Shown: piece by piece, positions 21,083 to 43,583 of the stretch
How the letters are laid out: each line of letters begins with the position of its first letter
Numbering within the stretch: position 1 is the stretch's first letter
Source: Chloroflexota bacterium
GTDB taxonomy: Bacteria > Chloroflexota > Limnocylindria > P2-11E
Length of the DNA: 43,583 nt
Assembly (NCBI GenBank): GCA_005889275.1
Contig: VBFI01000048.1
Coordinates: 1-43,583 of the forward strand
Direction: 5' to 3'
Position numbers and translations under genes: made by a program
Notes under the pieces: model-generated
The model's database searches: none
The model's input: the letters and a program-made list of their open reading frames with translations, nothing else
What the model was told of the DNA's origin: nothing

Positions 21083-22057
21083 TCAGGCCGCGACGAGGGA
21101 GCGAAGGGCGCGGCGAACGAGCTCGCGCGCGAGCGTGAGCTTGTAGCCGTTGTCGCGGAGCGGCGTCGCTCCGGCGAGGACACGCTCGGCGGCGTCCGCA
21201 CACGCGGCCTCGTCGAGCTCGCTGCCCTCGAGTCCTTTCTCGGCCGCGGCGACCCGCCACGGGATCGGGGCGATGCCCCCGAGGACGACGCGCACGTCTC
21301 GCGCCACGCCACGCTCGATGCGGGCCGCGGCGGCGACGGAGACGAGCGCGAAGCTCCACGCCTTGCGGTCCATCGCCTTCTGGTACGTACCCTTCCGCGC
21401 GAGCGCGGCTTCGGGGATGCGGATCTCGGTGATGAGCTCGCCCGGCCTGAGCGCGTGCTCGCGCCGCTCGCGGCCATGCGGCGCGACGAAGAGGTCCGCG
21501 AGCTTCATGTGCCGCCGGCCCCGCGAGCTCGCGAGGGAGATCTCGGCGTCATAGGCGACGAGCGCAGGCACGAGATCCGAGGGCGAGACCATCACGCATT
21601 CGCGCGCGCCGATGATCGCGTGGTAGCGATTCTCGCCATCGACCGCGAAGCAGCGGGTGCCGCCCTTGAGCCAGCACGGCGTGCCCTCGTCACGGAAGTA
21701 CCAGCAGCGATTCCGCTGCAGGAGATTTCCGCCGACGGTTCCCATGGTGCGGAGCTGGACCGTGGCGGCGTCGCGCAGCGCCTCGCGCAGGATCGGCATG
21801 AGCTGCCCGAGCTGCGGATTGCCCTCGAGCTCGATGAGCGGGGTGAGCGCGCCGATGCGCAGGCCCTTTCCCCGCTCGCGCGACCATCCGCGGAGTCCCT
21901 CGATCCCGGTGAGGTCGACGAGCGTGTCGGGCCGCACGAGGCCGTCCTTCATGAGGCCAAGGAGATCCGTCCCGCCGGCGAGGGCGACGGCACCGCTCCG
22001 GAGCCGCCGAAGCGCGTCCGCGAGTGCCGTCGGCCGGGCGTACGAGAACGCGTTCAC
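21083..22057 (-). CDS. FAD-binding medium subunit of third molybdenum hydroxylase, with [4Fe-4S] cysteines
   Basis: This 324-residue CoxM/PaoB-type FAD subunit has AGGTDLLG (27-34) and MGTVGGN (105-111). C118, C128, C136 and C154 repeat exactly the 10-8-18 spacing of the medium subunit at 9069-10070 and sit in the same context (RCWYFRD, KGGTRCFAVDG, YHAIIGARE-Cys), so an additional [4Fe-4S] cluster is predicted here too. The GTG start overlaps the large-subunit stop (GTGA). As last gene of a small-large-medium operon on the minus strand, it completes a three-subunit enzyme. No subunit of this complex carries an export signal, so it should be cytoplasmic. Confidence 0.87.
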   Translation of the reverse strand: MNAFSYARPTALADALRRLRSGAVALAGGTDLLGLMKDGLVRPDTLVDLTGIEGLRGWSRERGKGLRIGALTPLIELEGNPQLGQLMPILREALRDAATVQLRTMGTVGGNLLQRNRCWYFRDEGTPCWLKGGTRCFAVDGENRYHAIIGARECVMVSPSDLVPALVAYDAEISLASSRGRRHMKLADLFVAPHGRERREHALRPGELITEIRIPEAALARKGTYQKAMDRKAWSFALVSVAAAARIERGVARDVRVVLGGIAPIPWRVAAAEKGLEGSELDEAACADAAERVLAGATPLRDNGYKLTLARELVRRALRSLVAA

Positions 22058-24342
22058 GAGCGCGCCTCCGCGACGGCGAGGGCGTCGAGCACGCGGGCCC
22101 TCGTGAGCGGGGCGTGACGGATGCGCGCGCCCGTCGCGTTCGCGACCGCGTTCGCGATCGCGGCGGCGGTCGGAATGATCGGAGGCTCGCCCAGTCCCTT
22201 CACACCGAGGTTGTTCGCGCGGCGGTCCGGCCGGTCGACGAACTTGACGGTGATCTTCGTGGGCACGTCCTTCACGGTCGGCACCTTGTAATTCTCCAGG
22301 TTCCCGTTCATGACCCGGCCGGTGGCCCGGTCGACGAAGCGCTCCTCGGTGAGCGCGAACCCGAGCGCCTGCAGCACACCGCCCTCGACCTGCGACCTCG
22401 CGGTCAGCGGATTGACGATGCGGCCGATGTCGTGCACGGCCACGATGTGCTCGACCGTGATCTCGCCGGTCCGCAGATCGACCTCGACCTCCGCGAAGTG
22501 CGCTCCGAAGGTGCGCTGCGACAGCTCGGGGTCGTTCGGGTGCCGCGCACCCTTCCCGATGACCGTGTTGTTCTCGACCTTGCCGAGGATCTCGGAGAGC
22601 GGCGTTCGCGCGCCCTTGCTCACTACGACACCGCCGTCGATCCGGAGCTCGCCCGCCGGCGTCTCGAGCACACCGGCCGCCGCGCCGAGGAGCTGCTCGC
22701 GCGCGTCCCGCGCGGCGATGCGCACGGCGGGTCCGACGGATGCGAGGGTGACCGAACCCGCCGAGATCGGGCCGTACGGGTTCTCCGTGTCTCCGATGCG
22801 CACGTGGACGTCGGCGAGGTCAACACCGAGCTCGTCCGCGCAGATCTGGGCGAGGACCGTGCGCGTGCCGGTGCCGATGTCCTGCGTGCCGGCGGTGAGG
22901 ACGACGGTGCCGTCGGGATTCAGATGGACGGTCGCGTACGCGGGCGGCCCTCCGCCGCCACCCCAGATCTGCGTCGCCATGCCCAACCCGCGATGCCGGT
23001 GGGGCGCCGAGCCGCGCATCCCGCCGTTGCGCCGACGGCGCCAGCCGATCTCCTCCGCCCCGATGCGGTAGCACTCCAGGAGGTGCTTGTCGGAGTAGCG
23101 CTTGCCGCTGAGCGGATCTTTGGGCGAGCCGGCGTGCTTCCGGCGCAGCGCGATGGGGTCGATCCCCAGCCGCTCGGCGAGCTCGTCGACCGCGCACTCG
23201 AGCGCGAACGTGCCCTCGACGTAGCCAGGCGCGCGGAAGGCCGAGAGCGCGCCCGCGTTCGTCACGACCTTGTAGGACTTCGACGACACGTTCGCCACGT
23301 CGTAGAGCGTGTTCGTCGGCCCGGTCGGGTTCGCGACCCACTTGCCCTGGCCGACGTTCGCCCATGAGGTGTGCTCGATGGCCGTGATCTCGCGGCCCTT
23401 GCCGGCGATGCGGATCTGCTGGAGCGTCGCCGAGCGGTTTCCGGCCGCGAGGTTTTCTTCGTCGCGCGTGAGGATGCACCGTGCCGGGCGGCCGAGCTCC
23501 ATTGCGAAGAGCGACGCGATGATCGAGTACTTGCCGACCCCGCCCTTCGACCCGAACCCGCCGCCCATGTAATCGCAGACGACGCGAATCTTCGAGAACG
23601 GCAGCTTGAGCGCCATCTTCAGGCCCTGGCGGACCCCGAACACGTGCTGCGTCGACTCGAAGACCGTGAGCACCTCGCCGTCCCACGAGGCGACCGCGCC
23701 GTGCGTCTCGAGGGAGTTGTGGATCTGGGTCGAGGTCCGGTAGGTCGCCTCGACGACCGCGTCCGCCTCTTTCATCGCTTTGCGGACGTCCCCGCGCTTG
23801 TGGGTGCTCGCTTCCGCGACGTTGCCGTCCGTCTCGAGCCGCGGCGCGACGTCGCCGATCGCCTCCTCGAGATCCACGACGTGCGGGAGGAGCTCGTAGT
23901 CGACCTCGATGAGCCGGAGCGCCTCCGCCGCGGTGTCCTCGTCGTCCGCCGCGACAGCGGCGACCTCGTCGCCGACGAAGCGGACCTCCTCGCGGAAGAT
24001 GGTGTCCTCGCCGCGAAACGCCGCCTTCGGCGCGTTGAACCGGTGGAGCACACCGCGGACCCCGGCGAGCGCCTCGGCCTTCTTCGTGTCGATGCGCCGC
24101 ACCCGCGCCCTCGGATACGGGCTTCGGAGGACGCGCACGAAGAGCATCGCCGGCAGGTAGACGTCCTGCGTGTAGCGGGCCCGTCCGGTGACCCGCGCCG
24201 TGCCGTCGACGCGGCGCCGCTCGTGCCCGATCTCGGTGCGCTCGCCGCCGTCGAGGAGCGGAAGATCGCGTCCCTCGACGAGGACGAGCGATTCGTAAAC
24301 CTCGCCCTCGAACTCCTCGCGCGACTTGACGACGCGCGGCAT
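22054..24342 (-). CDS. Molybdopterin-binding large subunit of third molybdenum hydroxylase
   Basis: This 762-residue subunit starts at an ATG overlapping the small-subunit stop (TAATG on the minus strand). The hammerhead domain (about 35-155) is followed by the cofactor loop GGGFGSK (260-266) and a C-terminal GVKGLGEPP with catalytic Glu719. The family hydroxylates aldehydes, purines or aromatic heterocycles with water as the oxygen source. The sequence is nearer the general xanthine dehydrogenase/aldehyde oxidase YagR/PaoC group than CO dehydrogenase: the CoxL active-site loop (AYxCSFR) is absent. Substrate unknown. The frame continues open upstream of 24342, but that part reads the small-subunit gene in another frame and is not coding. 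Confidence 0.88.
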   Translation of the reverse strand: MPRVVKSREEFEGEVYESLVLVEGRDLPLLDGGERTEIGHERRRVDGTARVTGRARYTQDVYLPAMLFVRVLRSPYPRARVRRIDTKKAEALAGVRGVLHRFNAPKAAFRGEDTIFREEVRFVGDEVAAVAADDEDTAAEALRLIEVDYELLPHVVDLEEAIGDVAPRLETDGNVAEASTHKRGDVRKAMKEADAVVEATYRTSTQIHNSLETHGAVASWDGEVLTVFESTQHVFGVRQGLKMALKLPFSKIRVVCDYMGGGFGSKGGVGKYSIIASLFAMELGRPARCILTRDEENLAAGNRSATLQQIRIAGKGREITAIEHTSWANVGQGKWVANPTGPTNTLYDVANVSSKSYKVVTNAGALSAFRAPGYVEGTFALECAVDELAERLGIDPIALRRKHAGSPKDPLSGKRYSDKHLLECYRIGAEEIGWRRRRNGGMRGSAPHRHRGLGMATQIWGGGGGPPAYATVHLNPDGTVVLTAGTQDIGTGTRTVLAQICADELGVDLADVHVRIGDTENPYGPISAGSVTLASVGPAVRIAARDAREQLLGAAAGVLETPAGELRIDGGVVVSKGARTPLSEILGKVENNTVIGKGARHPNDPELSQRTFGAHFAEVEVDLRTGEITVEHIVAVHDIGRIVNPLTARSQVEGGVLQALGFALTEERFVDRATGRVMNGNLENYKVPTVKDVPTKITVKFVDRPDRRANNLGVKGLGEPPIIPTAAAIANAVANATGARIRHAPLTRARVLDALAVAEARS

Positions 24343-24854
24343 TACTTGCGTCGCCTCCCCGCCGAGACCCCGGCCGCGACGATGTTCGGATACGCGCCGC
24401 AGCGGCACAGGTTTCCGGCGACCGCACGCCGCACGTCGGCCTCGGACGGCGCGGGCGTCGCACGGAGCAGCGCGACGATCGACATGATCTGGCCGGGCGT
24501 GCAGAAGCCGCACTGAAAGGCGTCGGCGTCGACGAACGCGCGCTGCACGGGGTGCAGCTCGCCGTCCTTGGCGAGCCCCTCGATGGTCTCGACGCGCTTT
24601 CCTTCGCACGCGACCGCGAGCGTCATGCACGAGTAGACCGGCCGGTCGTCGACGATGACCGTGCACGCGCCGCACGTGCCCTCGTCGCACACGCGCTTGC
24701 TGCCGGTGAGCCCGAGCGACTCGCGAAGCGTGTCGAGAAGGGTCCGCCGCGGCGGGACGCGCGCCGACACGGCGTTGCCGTTCACGGTGAGCGCGATGTC
24801 GATGGGACCGGGGCCGCGCAGCGCGGCGCCGTTCACCGAAGGGACCTGGGGCAC
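24342..24854 (-). CDS. 2Fe-2S small subunit of third molybdenum hydroxylase
   Basis: This 170-residue CoxS/PaoA-type protein has two [2Fe-2S] sites: C56, C61, C64, C76 (VCDEGTCGACTV) and C115, C118, C150, C152 (QCGFCTPG, LCRCGAYP). Length and layout are standard. Unlike the homologue at 12573-13556 it has no Tat signal and no C-terminal extension, so the enzyme should be cytosolic. The start is a GTG (24854). It is divergent from the hydroxyacyl-CoA dehydrogenase gene across 65 bp. Confidence 0.88.
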   Translation of the reverse strand: MPQVPSVNGAALRGPGPIDIALTVNGNAVSARVPPRRTLLDTLRESLGLTGSKRVCDEGTCGACTVIVDDRPVYSCMTLAVACEGKRVETIEGLAKDGELHPVQRAFVDADAFQCGFCTPGQIMSIVALLRATPAPSEADVRRAVAGNLCRCGAYPNIVAAGVSAGRRRK

Positions 24855-39841: not shown

Positions 39842-40429
39842 CTAACGGACCTTCGGCAGCCACTCCGGACGCTTCTTCTCGTACGCGGTGATATCGGCCT
39901 CACGCAGGAGCGTGACCGCGATGTCGTCGAGTCCCGCGAGGAGGCGCGAGCGCGCATGGTCATCGAGCGCGAACGGGGCGCGGAGGCCGGGGGCGGTCAC
40001 GAGCCGCTGCTCGACGTCCACCGCGATCTCCGTCGCCGGGTCCGCGCGGACCGCGTCGACGAGCCGCGTCACGATCGCCTCCGCGAGCTCCACCGGGACG
40101 AGGCCGTTCGCCAGGGCGTTGCTCTTGAAGATGTCCGCGAAGCGCGGCGCGATGACCGCGCGGAACCCGGCTTCGCGGAGAGCCCACACGGCGTGCTCGC
40201 GCGACGACCCCGAGCCGAAGTTCGCGCCGGCGAGGAGGATCGACGCCCCGTCGTAGCGGGCGTCGTTCATGACGAACCCCGGATCGCGGCGCCACGCCTC
40301 GAACAGACCCGCGGCGTACCCGGTCCGACCGAGGCGCTTCAGCCAGTGGCTCGGGATGATCTGGTCGGTGTCGACGTCCGCGCGCGCGAGCGGCAACGCC
40401 CGCCCGACGACGTGCCTTACGGGTTCCAT
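39842..40429 (-). CDS. leuD: 3-isopropylmalate dehydratase small subunit
   Basis: This 195-residue protein is the swivel domain that pairs with LeuC to interconvert 2- and 3-isopropylmalate in leucine synthesis. It has DVDTDQIIPSHWLK (18-31) and the active-site loop GSGSSREHAVWAL. The ATG overlaps the leuC stop (TAATG on the minus strand). Length and motifs are standard for bacterial LeuD. The frame continues open upstream of 40429 but there it only mirrors leuC. It is the last gene of the run, 44 bp upstream of the response-regulator start on the same strand. Confidence 0.9.
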   Translation of the reverse strand: MEPVRHVVGRALPLARADVDTDQIIPSHWLKRLGRTGYAAGLFEAWRRDPGFVMNDARYDGASILLAGANFGSGSSREHAVWALREAGFRAVIAPRFADIFKSNALANGLVPVELAEAIVTRLVDAVRADPATEIAVDVEQRLVTAPGLRAPFALDDHARSRLLAGLDDIAVTLLREADITAYEKKRPEWLPKVR

Positions 40430-41817
40430 TACAGGTCCGACGGCAACGCGAAATGGCCGGCGATCGCGGTCGCCGCGGCCACCGCCGGCGAGACCAGGTG
40501 CGTTCGGCCGCCCGGGCCCTGGCGCCCCTCGAAGTTGCGGTTCGACGTGGACGCGCACCGTTCGCCCGGCCGCAGCACGTCGGGGTTCATCCCGAGGCAC
40601 ATCGAGCATCCGGCGTCGCGCCACTCGAAGCCGGCCTCGCGAAAGATCCGATCGAGGCCCTCGCGTTCCGCGTCCGCCTTCACGCGCATGGACCCAGGGA
40701 CGACGAGCGCCCGCAGACCCGGCTTCACGCGCCGTCCGCGGACCACTTCGCTCGCGGTCCGGAGATCCTCGAGCCGCGCGTTCGTGCACGACCCGATGAA
40801 GACCGCGTCCACGGCGATCTCACGGACCGGTGTCCCGGGCCGCAGCTCCTGATACCGGAGCGCGCGCGCCGCGGCCTCCCGGTTGGCGTCGGCGCCGAAG
40901 GTGTCGGGCGATGGGACGCGCTCGTCGATCGTCACCGACTGCGCGGGGTTCGTCCCCCAAGTCACGTACGGACGCAGGGTCGTGGCATCGATCGTCACCT
41001 CTCGGTCGAAGCGGGCATCGTCGTCGGAGGGGAGCGCGCGCCACTCGTCGAGGGCCAGCTCCCAGAGCGGCCCCTTCGGCGCGTACGGTCGGCCCGCGAG
41101 CCACGCGAACGTGACCTCGTCCGGCGCGACGATCCCCGCGCGCGCGCCCGCCTCGATCGACATGTTGCAGATCGTCATGCGGCCCTCCAGCGAGAGCGCG
41201 CGGATCGTCGAGCCCCGGTACTCGATCACCGTGCCGGCCCCTCCCGCCGTGCCGATCCGGGCGATGATCCCGAGGATCACGTCCTTCGCCGAACACTCCG
41301 GCGGAAGGGCGCCGTTCACCGAGACCGCCATGGCGCCGGGTCGCTTCTGCCAGATCGTCTGCGTCGCGAGGACGTGCTCGATCTCGCTCGTCCCGATCCC
41401 CCACGCGAGCGCACCGAGCGCACCGTGCGTCGACGTATGGCTGTCGCCGCAGACGATCGTCATCCCGGGCTGCGTGAGACCGAGCTGCGGCGAGATGACG
41501 TGAACGATGCCTTGATCGGGATCGCCCATCGGAAAGCAGCGGATCCCGAACTCACGCGCGTTCTGGGCCATCGCCTCTATCTGTCGGGCGGAGATCTCCT
41601 CAGGCGCGGCGTCGTTCGTGGGAACGTTGTGATCCATCGTGGCGAGCGTGAGCTCGGGCCGGCGCAGTGGCCGTTTCGCGAGGCGGAGCCCCTCGAATGC
41701 CTGCGGGCTCGTGACCTCATGGACGAGATGAAGGTCGACGTAGAGCAGATCGGGCTCGCCTTCGGCCCGGCGGACGACGTGCCGCTCCCAGACCTTCTGC
41801 GAGAGCGTGCTGCCCAT
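40429..41817 (-). CDS. leuC: 3-isopropylmalate dehydratase large subunit
   Basis: This 462-residue aconitase-family subunit has [23 protein letters not shown] (about 128-150), [14 protein letters not shown] (near 344) and [11 protein letters not shown] (about 407-417), together giving the three [4Fe-4S] cysteine ligands. It isomerises 2-isopropylmalate with LeuD. The N-terminus [15 protein letters not shown] is family-typical. The start is 16 bp from the end of the MoaD-aminotransferase fusion gene upstream on the same strand, so the three genes are probably co-transcribed. Unlike the frame-broken LeuD-LeuC fusion at 33.2 kb, this copy has the standard two-gene layout. Confidence 0.92.
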
Positions 41818-41832
41818 GCGCTCGAGTATCGG

Positions 41833-43305
41833 CTACGCGGTGCGATCGAAGGCGCGCCGCAGTCGCCGCACGCCTTCGTCGATGCGCTCGGTGGTCGGCG
41901 AGCTGTACGAGAAGCGGAACGCGGCGGTGTGATCGCTGGCGACCCCGAACGCGTGACCGGGGACGAACGCGACGCCCTCTTCGAGCGCGGTCGCGAAGAG
42001 TGACCGCGAGGAACGCCCGTCCGGCAGCCGGACCCAGAGATAGAAGCCGCCGTCCGGATCGTTCCAGGTGACCCCGGTGGCCGCGAACTCGCGCGCGAGC
42101 GCCGCCCGCGCGCGGAGCTGCTTCTCCGAGTAGAGCGTCCTCAGCTTCACCAGGTGCTCGCTCGCGCGGCCGCGGCGATGGAACTCGACGACGATCCGCT
42201 GGCCGAGCGACGACGTCGATGAGTCGACGGTCTGCTTCGCCGCGGCCATCCGCGCGATCACGTCGACGGGCGCGACCGCCCACCCGACCCGCAACCCGGG
42301 GAGGAAGACCTTCGAGAACGAGCCGCAGTACACGACCTCGGCGCGCCCGCGTGCGAGGGCGGCGATCGTCGGGAGGTCCACGCGTCGGTAGCGCAGGTCG
42401 TGGTACGGATCGTCCTCGATGATGATCGACCGGTGACGCGCGGCGAGCTCGACGAGCGCCTCGCGGCGCGCGAGCGAGAGCGTCGCGCCGGTGGGATTCT
42501 GAAAGTTCGGGACGACGAAGAAGATGCGCGGCCGGACCCCGGCGCGGCGGATGAGGCGCTCGGCCTCGGCGACGTCGAGACCGTCGTCGTCCGCGGGCAC
42601 CTCGAGCACGCCGGCGCCGTGGTTGCGCAGCGCCGAGATCGCGTTCGTGAAGTGCGGCGACTCGACGACGGCGACGTCGCCTGGCCGCACGAAGACGCGC
42701 GCGGCGAGGTCGATCGCCTGGAGCGCTCCGGCGGTGACGATCACGTTGCCGTCGCCGCAGGCGACGCCGCGCTCGCGCATCAGGCCGGCGACGATCGCGC
42801 GGAGCTCCGGGTCCCCCTCGGTGATGCCGTAACCGAGCGCGGCGGAGCCGTCCCGCTCGATCACCGTGCGCGCGAGGTCATCCACCCCGACCAGCTCGAG
42901 CGCCTCACGAGCGGGTGAGCCGACCGCGAAGAGGACGGTGTCGCGCGTCTGGCGCGCGGCGATGCTGATCGTCTCGTCGATGAAGGATCCGTAGACCTCA
43001 TGCGGCCCGCGGATCGCGTCCGGGAGCTCGGCGACCGCGCCGCCGCTCATCGCCGGCAGGATCTCGACGGTGCGTTTTCCCGCGAGCTCGGCTCGCGGAT
43101 CCAGGTACCGGGCGTCCTCGCCATCCACGAAGACGTTCACGAAGGGTCCGAACGCGCCGTCGCGCAGCACGCGTGCCGCGAGCTCCGGGTAGCGCTCGGT
43201 GATCTCGCGGACGAGGCCACCGAGGTCGGCCGCGTCGAGAGCGAGCGTCGCGCTCCCGCCGGCCGCGGCGCGGAGCGGCGTGGCGAGTCGAACGGTGACG
43301 CTCAT
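41833..43305 (-). CDS. MoaD/ThiS-like sulfur-carrier domain fused to PLP aminotransferase
   Basis: This 490-residue protein has two domains. Residues 1-89 form a beta-grasp MoaD/ThiS domain (VTVRLATPLRAAAGG; NVFVDGEDARYL; KRTVEILPAMSGG), ending in the Gly88-Gly89 that is normally the free C-terminus of such sulfur carriers. Residues 100-490 form a fold-type I aminotransferase of the LysN/2-aminoadipate type: NPTG (270-273), DDPYHD (298-303) and the PLP lysine Lys332 in GSFSKVFLPG. The frame is continuous. Met86 at 43050 lies exactly at the junction and might start a separate 405-residue aminotransferase. The GTG or ATG start overlaps the threonine synthase end by 4 bp. Separate MoaD-like genes beside thrC are known; fusion to an aminotransferase is unusual. 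Confidence 0.85.
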   Translation of the reverse strand: MSVTVRLATPLRAAAGGSATLALDAADLGGLVREITERYPELAARVLRDGAFGPFVNVFVDGEDARYLDPRAELAGKRTVEILPAMSGGAVAELPDAIRGPHEVYGSFIDETISIAARQTRDTVLFAVGSPAREALELVGVDDLARTVIERDGSAALGYGITEGDPELRAIVAGLMRERGVACGDGNVIVTAGALQAIDLAARVFVRPGDVAVVESPHFTNAISALRNHGAGVLEVPADDDGLDVAEAERLIRRAGVRPRIFFVVPNFQNPTGATLSLARREALVELAARHRSIIIEDDPYHDLRYRRVDLPTIAALARGRAEVVYCGSFSKVFLPGLRVGWAVAPVDVIARMAAAKQTVDSSTSSLGQRIVVEFHRRGRASEHLVKLRTLYSEKQLRARAALAREFAATGVTWNDPDGGFYLWVRLPDGRSSRSLFATALEEGVAFVPGHAFGVASDHTAAFRFSYSSPTTERIDEGVRRLRRAFDRTA

Positions 43306-43583
43306 CCGAGCACCTCCTGATACGCGTCGCGGAAGACGTCCGCGTCGGGATCGATGACCGCGGCGAGCGGCGGTGCGACGACGCCGCCCTTGTACGCGTT
43401 TCCGGTGATGTACAGGACGACCGATTCGCCGCTCGCGAATACGCCGCGGCGCGCGAGCGCTCGCGCGGCCGCGACGACGACGCCACCCGCGGGCTCGGCG
43501 AGGACGCCTTCGGTCTGCGCGAGGAGCGCGCCGGCGTCCACGATGTCGTCGTCGCTCACCGCCGCCGCCGACCCGCCAGTCGC
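43302..43583 (-). CDS. thrC: Threonine synthase, C-terminal part (cut by window edge)
   Basis: Ninety-three residues of a PLP-dependent beta/gamma-replacement enzyme are visible. The segments TEGVLAEPAGG (with the conserved acidic residue of the TEG-EPAGG loop) and VVLYITGNAYKGG match the C-terminal end of threonine synthase, which makes threonine from O-phosphohomoserine. The frame is open to the window edge and codes ATGGSAAA before the GTG at 43559, so the gene begins outside. Its stop overlaps the start of the MoaD-aminotransferase fusion by 4 bp. Confidence 0.8.
   Translation of the reverse strand, partial: ATGGSAAAVSDDDIVDAGALLAQTEGVLAEPAGGVVVAAARALARRGVFASGESVVLYITGNAYKGGVVAPPLAAVIDPDADVFRDAYQEVLG

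Follow-up and report, generated by a model that had tools for sequence, protein, structure and literature searches.

The analysed window is one whole contig of 43,583 nucleotides (43.6 kb) from a soil bacterium, whose genome is a 2.78-Mb draft MAG in 235 contigs. A single 490-residue open reading frame without an internal stop (43305..41833, minus strand) encodes a ubiquitin-like sulfur carrier joined in frame to an aminotransferase (Table 1). Pfam places ThiS at residues 5-89 (31.5 bits, cut-off 22.5) and Aminotran_1_2 at residues 126-482 (E 2.9e-44). The start of the fusion shares 4 bp (43302-43305) with an upstream threonine-synthase-like (ThrC-like) gene, which is truncated because the window is the entire contig and the gene runs off its end. 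The 93 residues left are 66% identical to residues 324-412 of a full-length homologue (L038 4760-6004), and relatives carry a full-length threonine-synthase-like gene of 411-422 residues at the same place.

Table 1. Features at the fusion locus, in window coordinates.
Feature	Position	Strand	Basis or remark
Threonine-synthase-like PLP enzyme (PALP), C-terminal 93 residues	43302..43583	-	PF00291 match; cut by contig end
Ubiquitin-like sulfur-carrier domain, CysO-like, residues 1-89	43039..43305	-	ThiS Pfam match; PDB sequence matches; fold match
Gly88-Gly89 codons, predicted cleavage/thiocarboxylation point (PAMSGG, then A)	43039..43044	-	Conserved in 12 of 12 fused copies; free homologues stop here
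Variable linker of 16 residues, AVAELPDAIRGPHEVY	42991..43038	-	Low identity; low pLDDT
LysN/MocR-type fold-I PLP aminotransferase, residues 106-490 and stop	41833..42990	-	Aminotran_1_2; Foldseek; operon context
Lys332 in SFSKVFLPG	42310..42312	-	Position read from sequence
Spacer between fusion and leuC	41818..41832	-	First 14 nt, CCGATACTCGAGCG, stand directly after the free carrier's TGA in G003 of the same genus
leuC, 3-isopropylmalate dehydratase large subunit	40429..41817	-	Named from sequence; neighbour family conserved in relatives
leuD, 3-isopropylmalate dehydratase small subunit	39842..40429	-	Named from sequence; neighbour family conserved in relatives

The original prediction would have been refuted by a structure in which residues 1-89 lack a beta-grasp fold, and the model shows that fold. 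In an AlphaFold model made with 17 homologues (mean pLDDT 88.6), these residues adopt the beta-grasp fold of ThiS/MoaD/CysO-type carriers. The best match is M. tuberculosis CysO (3dwg_C, TM 0.82), with further matches to Amycolatopsis CysO (4n6e_B) and SAMP1 (3po0, TM 0.80); 4n6e_B and 3dwg_C are also the PDB sequence matches of the carrier. As to whether Gly88-Gly89 is exposed, residues 86-104 fall below 50 in the full-protein model (mean pLDDT 88.5), so the two glycines open a flexible linker.

The claim that a carrier is fused to an aminotransferase was borne out, and the proposed search found the same domain order in other genomes, at 60-74% identity. In all, the fusion is present 12 times, in 11 genomes from two genera (g1 and g6); the count includes one copy cut by a contig end (G009) and one with a shortened aminotransferase (G010). 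Two fusion loci are present in G019. A search of 61 genomes with the full protein met the joint between carrier and aminotransferase in no other family. The shortened aminotransferase of G010 (L036 1972-3315) lacks about 41 residues around 273-313, the EDDPY motif included, and its carrier is intact; it is either a dead enzyme or an assembly collapse.

The two halves of the fusion also occur apart. Four further genera of the family, and one genus of a sister family, have the aminotransferase as a free-standing gene, mostly between ilv genes and ilvA/leuC/leuD. Its contexts in several genera follow the order ilvB-ilvN-ilvC-(leuA)-ilvD-aminotransferase-ilvA-leuC-leuD, in which the gene names were read from sequence except for ilvA, which was confirmed. 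Any carrier found in the sister genera has a gene of its own, immediately after that same paralog of threonine synthase. One contig of G016 shows both arrangements 8 kb apart, with thrC-carrier first, ilvB-ilvC-leuA-ilvD next and aminotransferase-ilvA-leuC-leuD last, and in genus g6 (L092) the order is ilvN-ilvC-ilvD-thrC-carrier::aminotransferase-ilvA-leuC-leuD. As further Chloroflexota families and an Actinomycetota MAG also have the thrC-carrier pair, the pair is older than the fusion.

At the joint, the 12 fused copies have ILPAMSGG followed by Ala in common. Identity among them is 95% over the last 10 residues of the carrier and 48% over the preceding 30-residue stretch, then drops to 38% over the first 10 linker residues after Gly-Gly (16% between g1 and g6). 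The Gly, Gly, Ser, Leu and Pro codons of the tail vary synonymously among the fused copies, so that selection acts on the protein and not on the DNA; by this measure the Gly-Gly tail is under purifying selection. The glycines are invariant and internal in the fused copies and form the free end of the carrier in the sister genera and in G003. Most free thrC-linked carriers of the family end exactly at SGG-stop, and one ends at SGGAG-stop.

G003, a member of the same genus, has an unfused carrier that ends GGC GGC TGA, and the next 14 nt are identical to those behind the stop codon of the aminotransferase in the window. In the leuC-leuD tree this genome is nested within the fused genomes, with G006 as its sister (99/98), and a search with the full fusion protein found no close homologue of the fused aminotransferase in it. 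Given this nesting and the exact junction, the simplest reading is that the aminotransferase was lost precisely and the free Gly-Gly end restored. Alternatively, the aminotransferase was inserted just as precisely in the other genomes.

The C-terminal domain is a close match to the LysN/2-aminoadipate aminotransferase family (2egy and 2zyj; Thermus LysN), with 2egy as the best Foldseek match (E 1e-37, 37% identity), and Lys332 is presumably its PLP Schiff-base lysine, as expected in this family. It differs from that family in its added N-terminal carrier and its leucine/isoleucine operon setting. The genome of the window (G000) also encodes two type-I IlvE proteins above cut-off, and the fused enzyme is thus not supported as the sole branched-chain transaminase.

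Phylogenies show that the aminotransferase has changed while the carrier stayed. Monophyly is rejected both for the whole set of fused aminotransferases (p-AU 6e-5) and for those from genus g1 (p-AU 4e-5), and with it a single fusion origin for the aminotransferase part. Despite the split of its aminotransferases, g1 is held together by the leuC-leuD tree (100/99) and by the thrC tree (93/97). On these trees, at least three aminotransferase lineages stand behind the carrier and the identity of the partner changed at least twice, which suggests that the aminotransferase is an interchangeable passenger, independent of the carrier. The original prediction had drawn from the added aminotransferase a link between sulfur transfer and threonine- or homoserine-derived amino acids. 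That link is not supported: the aminotransferase stems from an ilv/leu operon, has changed at least twice and is absent in G003, which keeps the thrC-carrier pair. The link that the gene orders conserve is the one between the carrier and the ThrC-like enzyme.

The genome of the window encodes three threonine-synthase-type proteins. One stands beside a homoserine-kinase-like gene; another, of PRK08197 type (C104, L103 3284-4510, minus strand), is clustered with CBS-like and cystathionine gamma-synthase-type genes; the third is the carrier-linked one. Carrier-linked ThrC scores 236 bits against TIGR00260 (cut-off 167) and keeps the PLP lysine in SFKDR (SYKDR in L063). In nearly all carrier-linked paralogs, NSVNPxR..EGQKT and GNAGN of the thrB-linked enzyme have become F/VNxxLRPYYxEGSKT and GSGAL-like. 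We take the NSVNPxR and GNAGN motifs of threonine synthase to bind the substrate phosphate. Judged by its motifs, carrier-linked ThrC is a threonine-synthase paralog without the substrate-binding motifs of the thrB-linked enzyme, and instead of making threonine it may therefore act as a sulfur-using PLP synthase.

The CysM-CysO-Mec pathway of M. tuberculosis offers a parallel. There too a CysO-like carrier stands beside a PALP-type PLP enzyme, with a rhodanese E1 and a JAMM protein in the genome, and the carrier described here is closest to CysO in both sequence and fold. However, the PALP enzyme of our locus is a threonine-synthase paralog and not CysM, and the canonical CysM-CysO-JAMM cluster lies separately in the same genome. 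Since a carrier beside a PALP enzyme is the CysO-CysM arrangement, our preferred guess is that the ThrC-like enzyme uses the thiocarboxylate of the carrier. Homocysteine synthesis by this pair as the sole route is weakened by a cystathionine gamma-synthase-type enzyme above cut-off (PRK07811) in the genome of the window; a second gamma-family enzyme is nearest to O-succinylhomoserine sulfhydrylase and below its cut-off.

Enzymes that could process and load such a carrier are present. A genome search returned one rhodanese-ThiF/MoeB E1 and five ThiS-family matches. The single Prok-JAB/JAMM protein (C71:5077-5496), encoded away from the fusion locus and adjoining cysM-cysO, has its Glu and HxH(x7)SxxD motif intact. 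One JAMM gene is found in nine of the 11 fused genomes; none was found in G010 (80% complete) or G019 (66% complete).

Cleavage of a carrier from a fused enzyme has precedents. MoaX is cut between Gly82 and Ser83, Gly81 is needed for the cut and cleavage is needed for function (PMC4326299). That paper names no protease for it, and a protease other than JAMM may therefore act. In D. radiodurans, the JAMM protein DR0402 cuts the MoaD-MoaE fusion DR2607 (PMC8832034), and HvJAMM1 cuts an engineered SAMP1-MoaE exactly after the last Gly, with Gly-Gly required in vivo (PMC4443979). Iyer, Burroughs and Aravind proposed in 2006 that JAB domains free ThiS and MoaD from fusions (PMC1779556), and their catalogue (ThiS-ThiG, MoaD-MoaE, ThiS-sulfite reductase and MoaD-aldehyde oxidoreductase) likewise has carriers fused to metabolic enzymes. 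A term search of that paper finds no mention of aminotransferase or threonine synthase, unlike the present fusion.

MoaX, DR2607 and SAMP1-MoaE resemble our protein in having an N-terminal ubiquitin-like carrier, an internal Gly-Gly and an enzyme in frame behind it. In these fusions the partner MoaE is the carrier's own sulfur acceptor. The aminotransferase at our locus, by contrast, belongs to a different pathway, and the ThrC-like enzyme that we presume to be the acceptor has a gene to itself. Cleavage has been demonstrated for the MoaX type and for the carrier::aminotransferase fusion we infer it. Our literature search found no account of a carrier-aminotransferase fusion, and no paper in which threonine synthase, sulfur carrier protein and MoaD are treated together. 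As far as the literature was searched, the idea of cleavage at Gly-Gly is already known, and the aminotransferase partner and its repeated change are apparently undescribed.

Given the above, we consider it likely that the protein is made as a precursor and cleaved behind Gly89, with JAMM as the probable protease, and that the freed carrier is loaded by the E1 and serves the ThrC-like enzyme with the aminotransferase as a passenger. Under this scenario, the stop codon of the carrier was lost inside the operon, joining it to the LysN-type aminotransferase of the next gene. A Gly-Gly-specific protease, most likely the single Prok-JAB/JAMM protein encoded next to cysO, would cut after Gly89, and the freed carrier would be adenylated and thiocarboxylated by the single rhodanese-MoeB E1. 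By analogy with CysO and CysM, it would then deliver sulfur to the ThrC-like PLP enzyme encoded upstream, while the released aminotransferase would work independently. The original prediction had left three fates open for the fusion. Cleavage after Gly89 is the best supported of them, by the strict Gly-Gly, the free homologues that end there, the intact JAMM and the precedents; a separate product from Met86 and loss of the sulfur role are both disfavoured. Some points still count against our reading. The tail could be conserved for docking to the E1 or ThrC without any cut, two fused genomes yielded no JAMM, and the JAMM gene of the window's genome lies away from the fusion. That three lineages each fused the carrier to an enzyme of the Ile/Leu/Val operon could also mean an advantage and not neighbourhood alone.

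The same recurrence of one partner type in three lineages would suit a two-domain enzyme that stays uncut, in which the carrier serves to dock the aminotransferase on the ThrC-like enzyme (or the E1), threonine or oxo-acids are channelled among ThrC, IlvA and the aminotransferase, and Gly-Gly is a recognition element only. The consecutive thrC, carrier::aminotransferase and ilvA of genus g6 in one operon and the Ala after Gly-Gly in every fused copy are in keeping with it. We nevertheless judge it improbable, as the linker is unconserved in sequence and of low confidence in the model, the aminotransferases behind the same carrier lineage are not monophyletic, G003 retains thrC-carrier but not this aminotransferase, and free carriers end at Gly-Gly.

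Two translation products, the full fusion and an aminotransferase translated from Met86 within the frame (or from a GTG further downstream), would require no protease, and all fused copies do have an ATG just before the junction. This Met, however, belongs to the PAMSGG motif and is present too in free carriers with nothing after them. No SD-like word precedes it in 10 of 11 fused genes, while AGGAGG or AAGGAG does precede several of the free-standing aminotransferase genes, and internal initiation would yield no carrier with a free glycine end; we regard this route as quite unlikely. Equally hard to credit is that the carrier lost sulfur transfer and persists at the N-terminus of the aminotransferase as a vestige or a regulatory domain. 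A blocked C-terminus cannot be thiocarboxylated as it is, and sister genera have the aminotransferase without a carrier. Yet no part of the carrier is better conserved than the tail needed for thiocarboxylation, the thrC linkage is retained, and G003 lost the aminotransferase and kept the carrier. An annotation or assembly artefact, such as a missed frameshift or stop joining two neighbours in a genome of so many contigs, can be set aside as extremely improbable, since the in-frame fusion recurs in other genomes and at both loci of G019.

Returning to cleavage after Gly89, a wider reading can be offered tentatively. MetY/HcyS is a reported protein-thiocarboxylate-dependent pair. The ThrC-like enzyme and its carrier may add to CysM/CysO and MetY/HcyS another amino-acid synthase that depends on a protein thiocarboxylate, making a product other than threonine, with the carrier delivered as a precursor like a ubiquitin fusion and any downstream gene as its passenger. 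Should the carrier be cut free from any protein that happens to be joined behind it, Gly-Gly would be a general processing site, comparable to that of eukaryotic ubiquitin fused to ribosomal proteins, and repeated fusion and un-fusion exactly at Gly-Gly would be a natural experiment for such processing. The locus also makes testable the old question of why ThiS/MoaD-like genes adjoin threonine-synthase genes. Without a sulfur-using ThrC-like enzyme, the aminotransferase fusion alone would be a curiosity of operon evolution.

Extensions after Gly-Gly are not confined to the aminotransferase fusion. Of the 38 CysO proteins in clusters of the same class, 26 extend beyond Gly-Gly by 1-26 residues, mostly with JAMM in the same operon, and two further carriers in the genome of the window have an enzyme in frame after SGG. 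Together with the other fusions described below, these tails make the aminotransferase fusion look like the extreme of a spectrum of post-Gly-Gly extensions.

One of the two further carriers in the genome of the window is a MoaD::MoaE fusion of MoaX type with an internal SGG (C14, L101 3208-3876, plus strand). A possible user of Moco from this system lies in the window itself, where three adjoining genes (21083-24854, minus strand) resemble the medium, large and small subunits of a molybdenum hydroxylase of the CO or xanthine dehydrogenase type. The other is a ThiS-like domain fused to a CoA-transferase of family III (C112, L102 2294-3697, minus strand), a combination found also in G007 (L114 1099-2604, plus strand); the carrier part of these two ends LLPAISGG or VLPAISGG. 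In G027 (L118 3057-4046, minus strand), the thrC-linked carrier of our locus has a second partner, with a DUF4395 membrane domain and a thioredoxin-like domain behind its LLPAISGG in a protein of 329 residues; a literature search on DUF4395 with thioredoxin found nothing. In G075, from the wider class (L184 822-2279, minus strand), a carrier runs on behind PAIAGG into its own MoeB-type E1. Another, different ThiS-like carrier recurs next to one kind of protein of about 360 residues that has a repeat or propeller look (L096 4638-5979; L095 12944-13830; L060-L070 in Micromonospora; L072-L077 in the Knoellia/Phycicoccus group).
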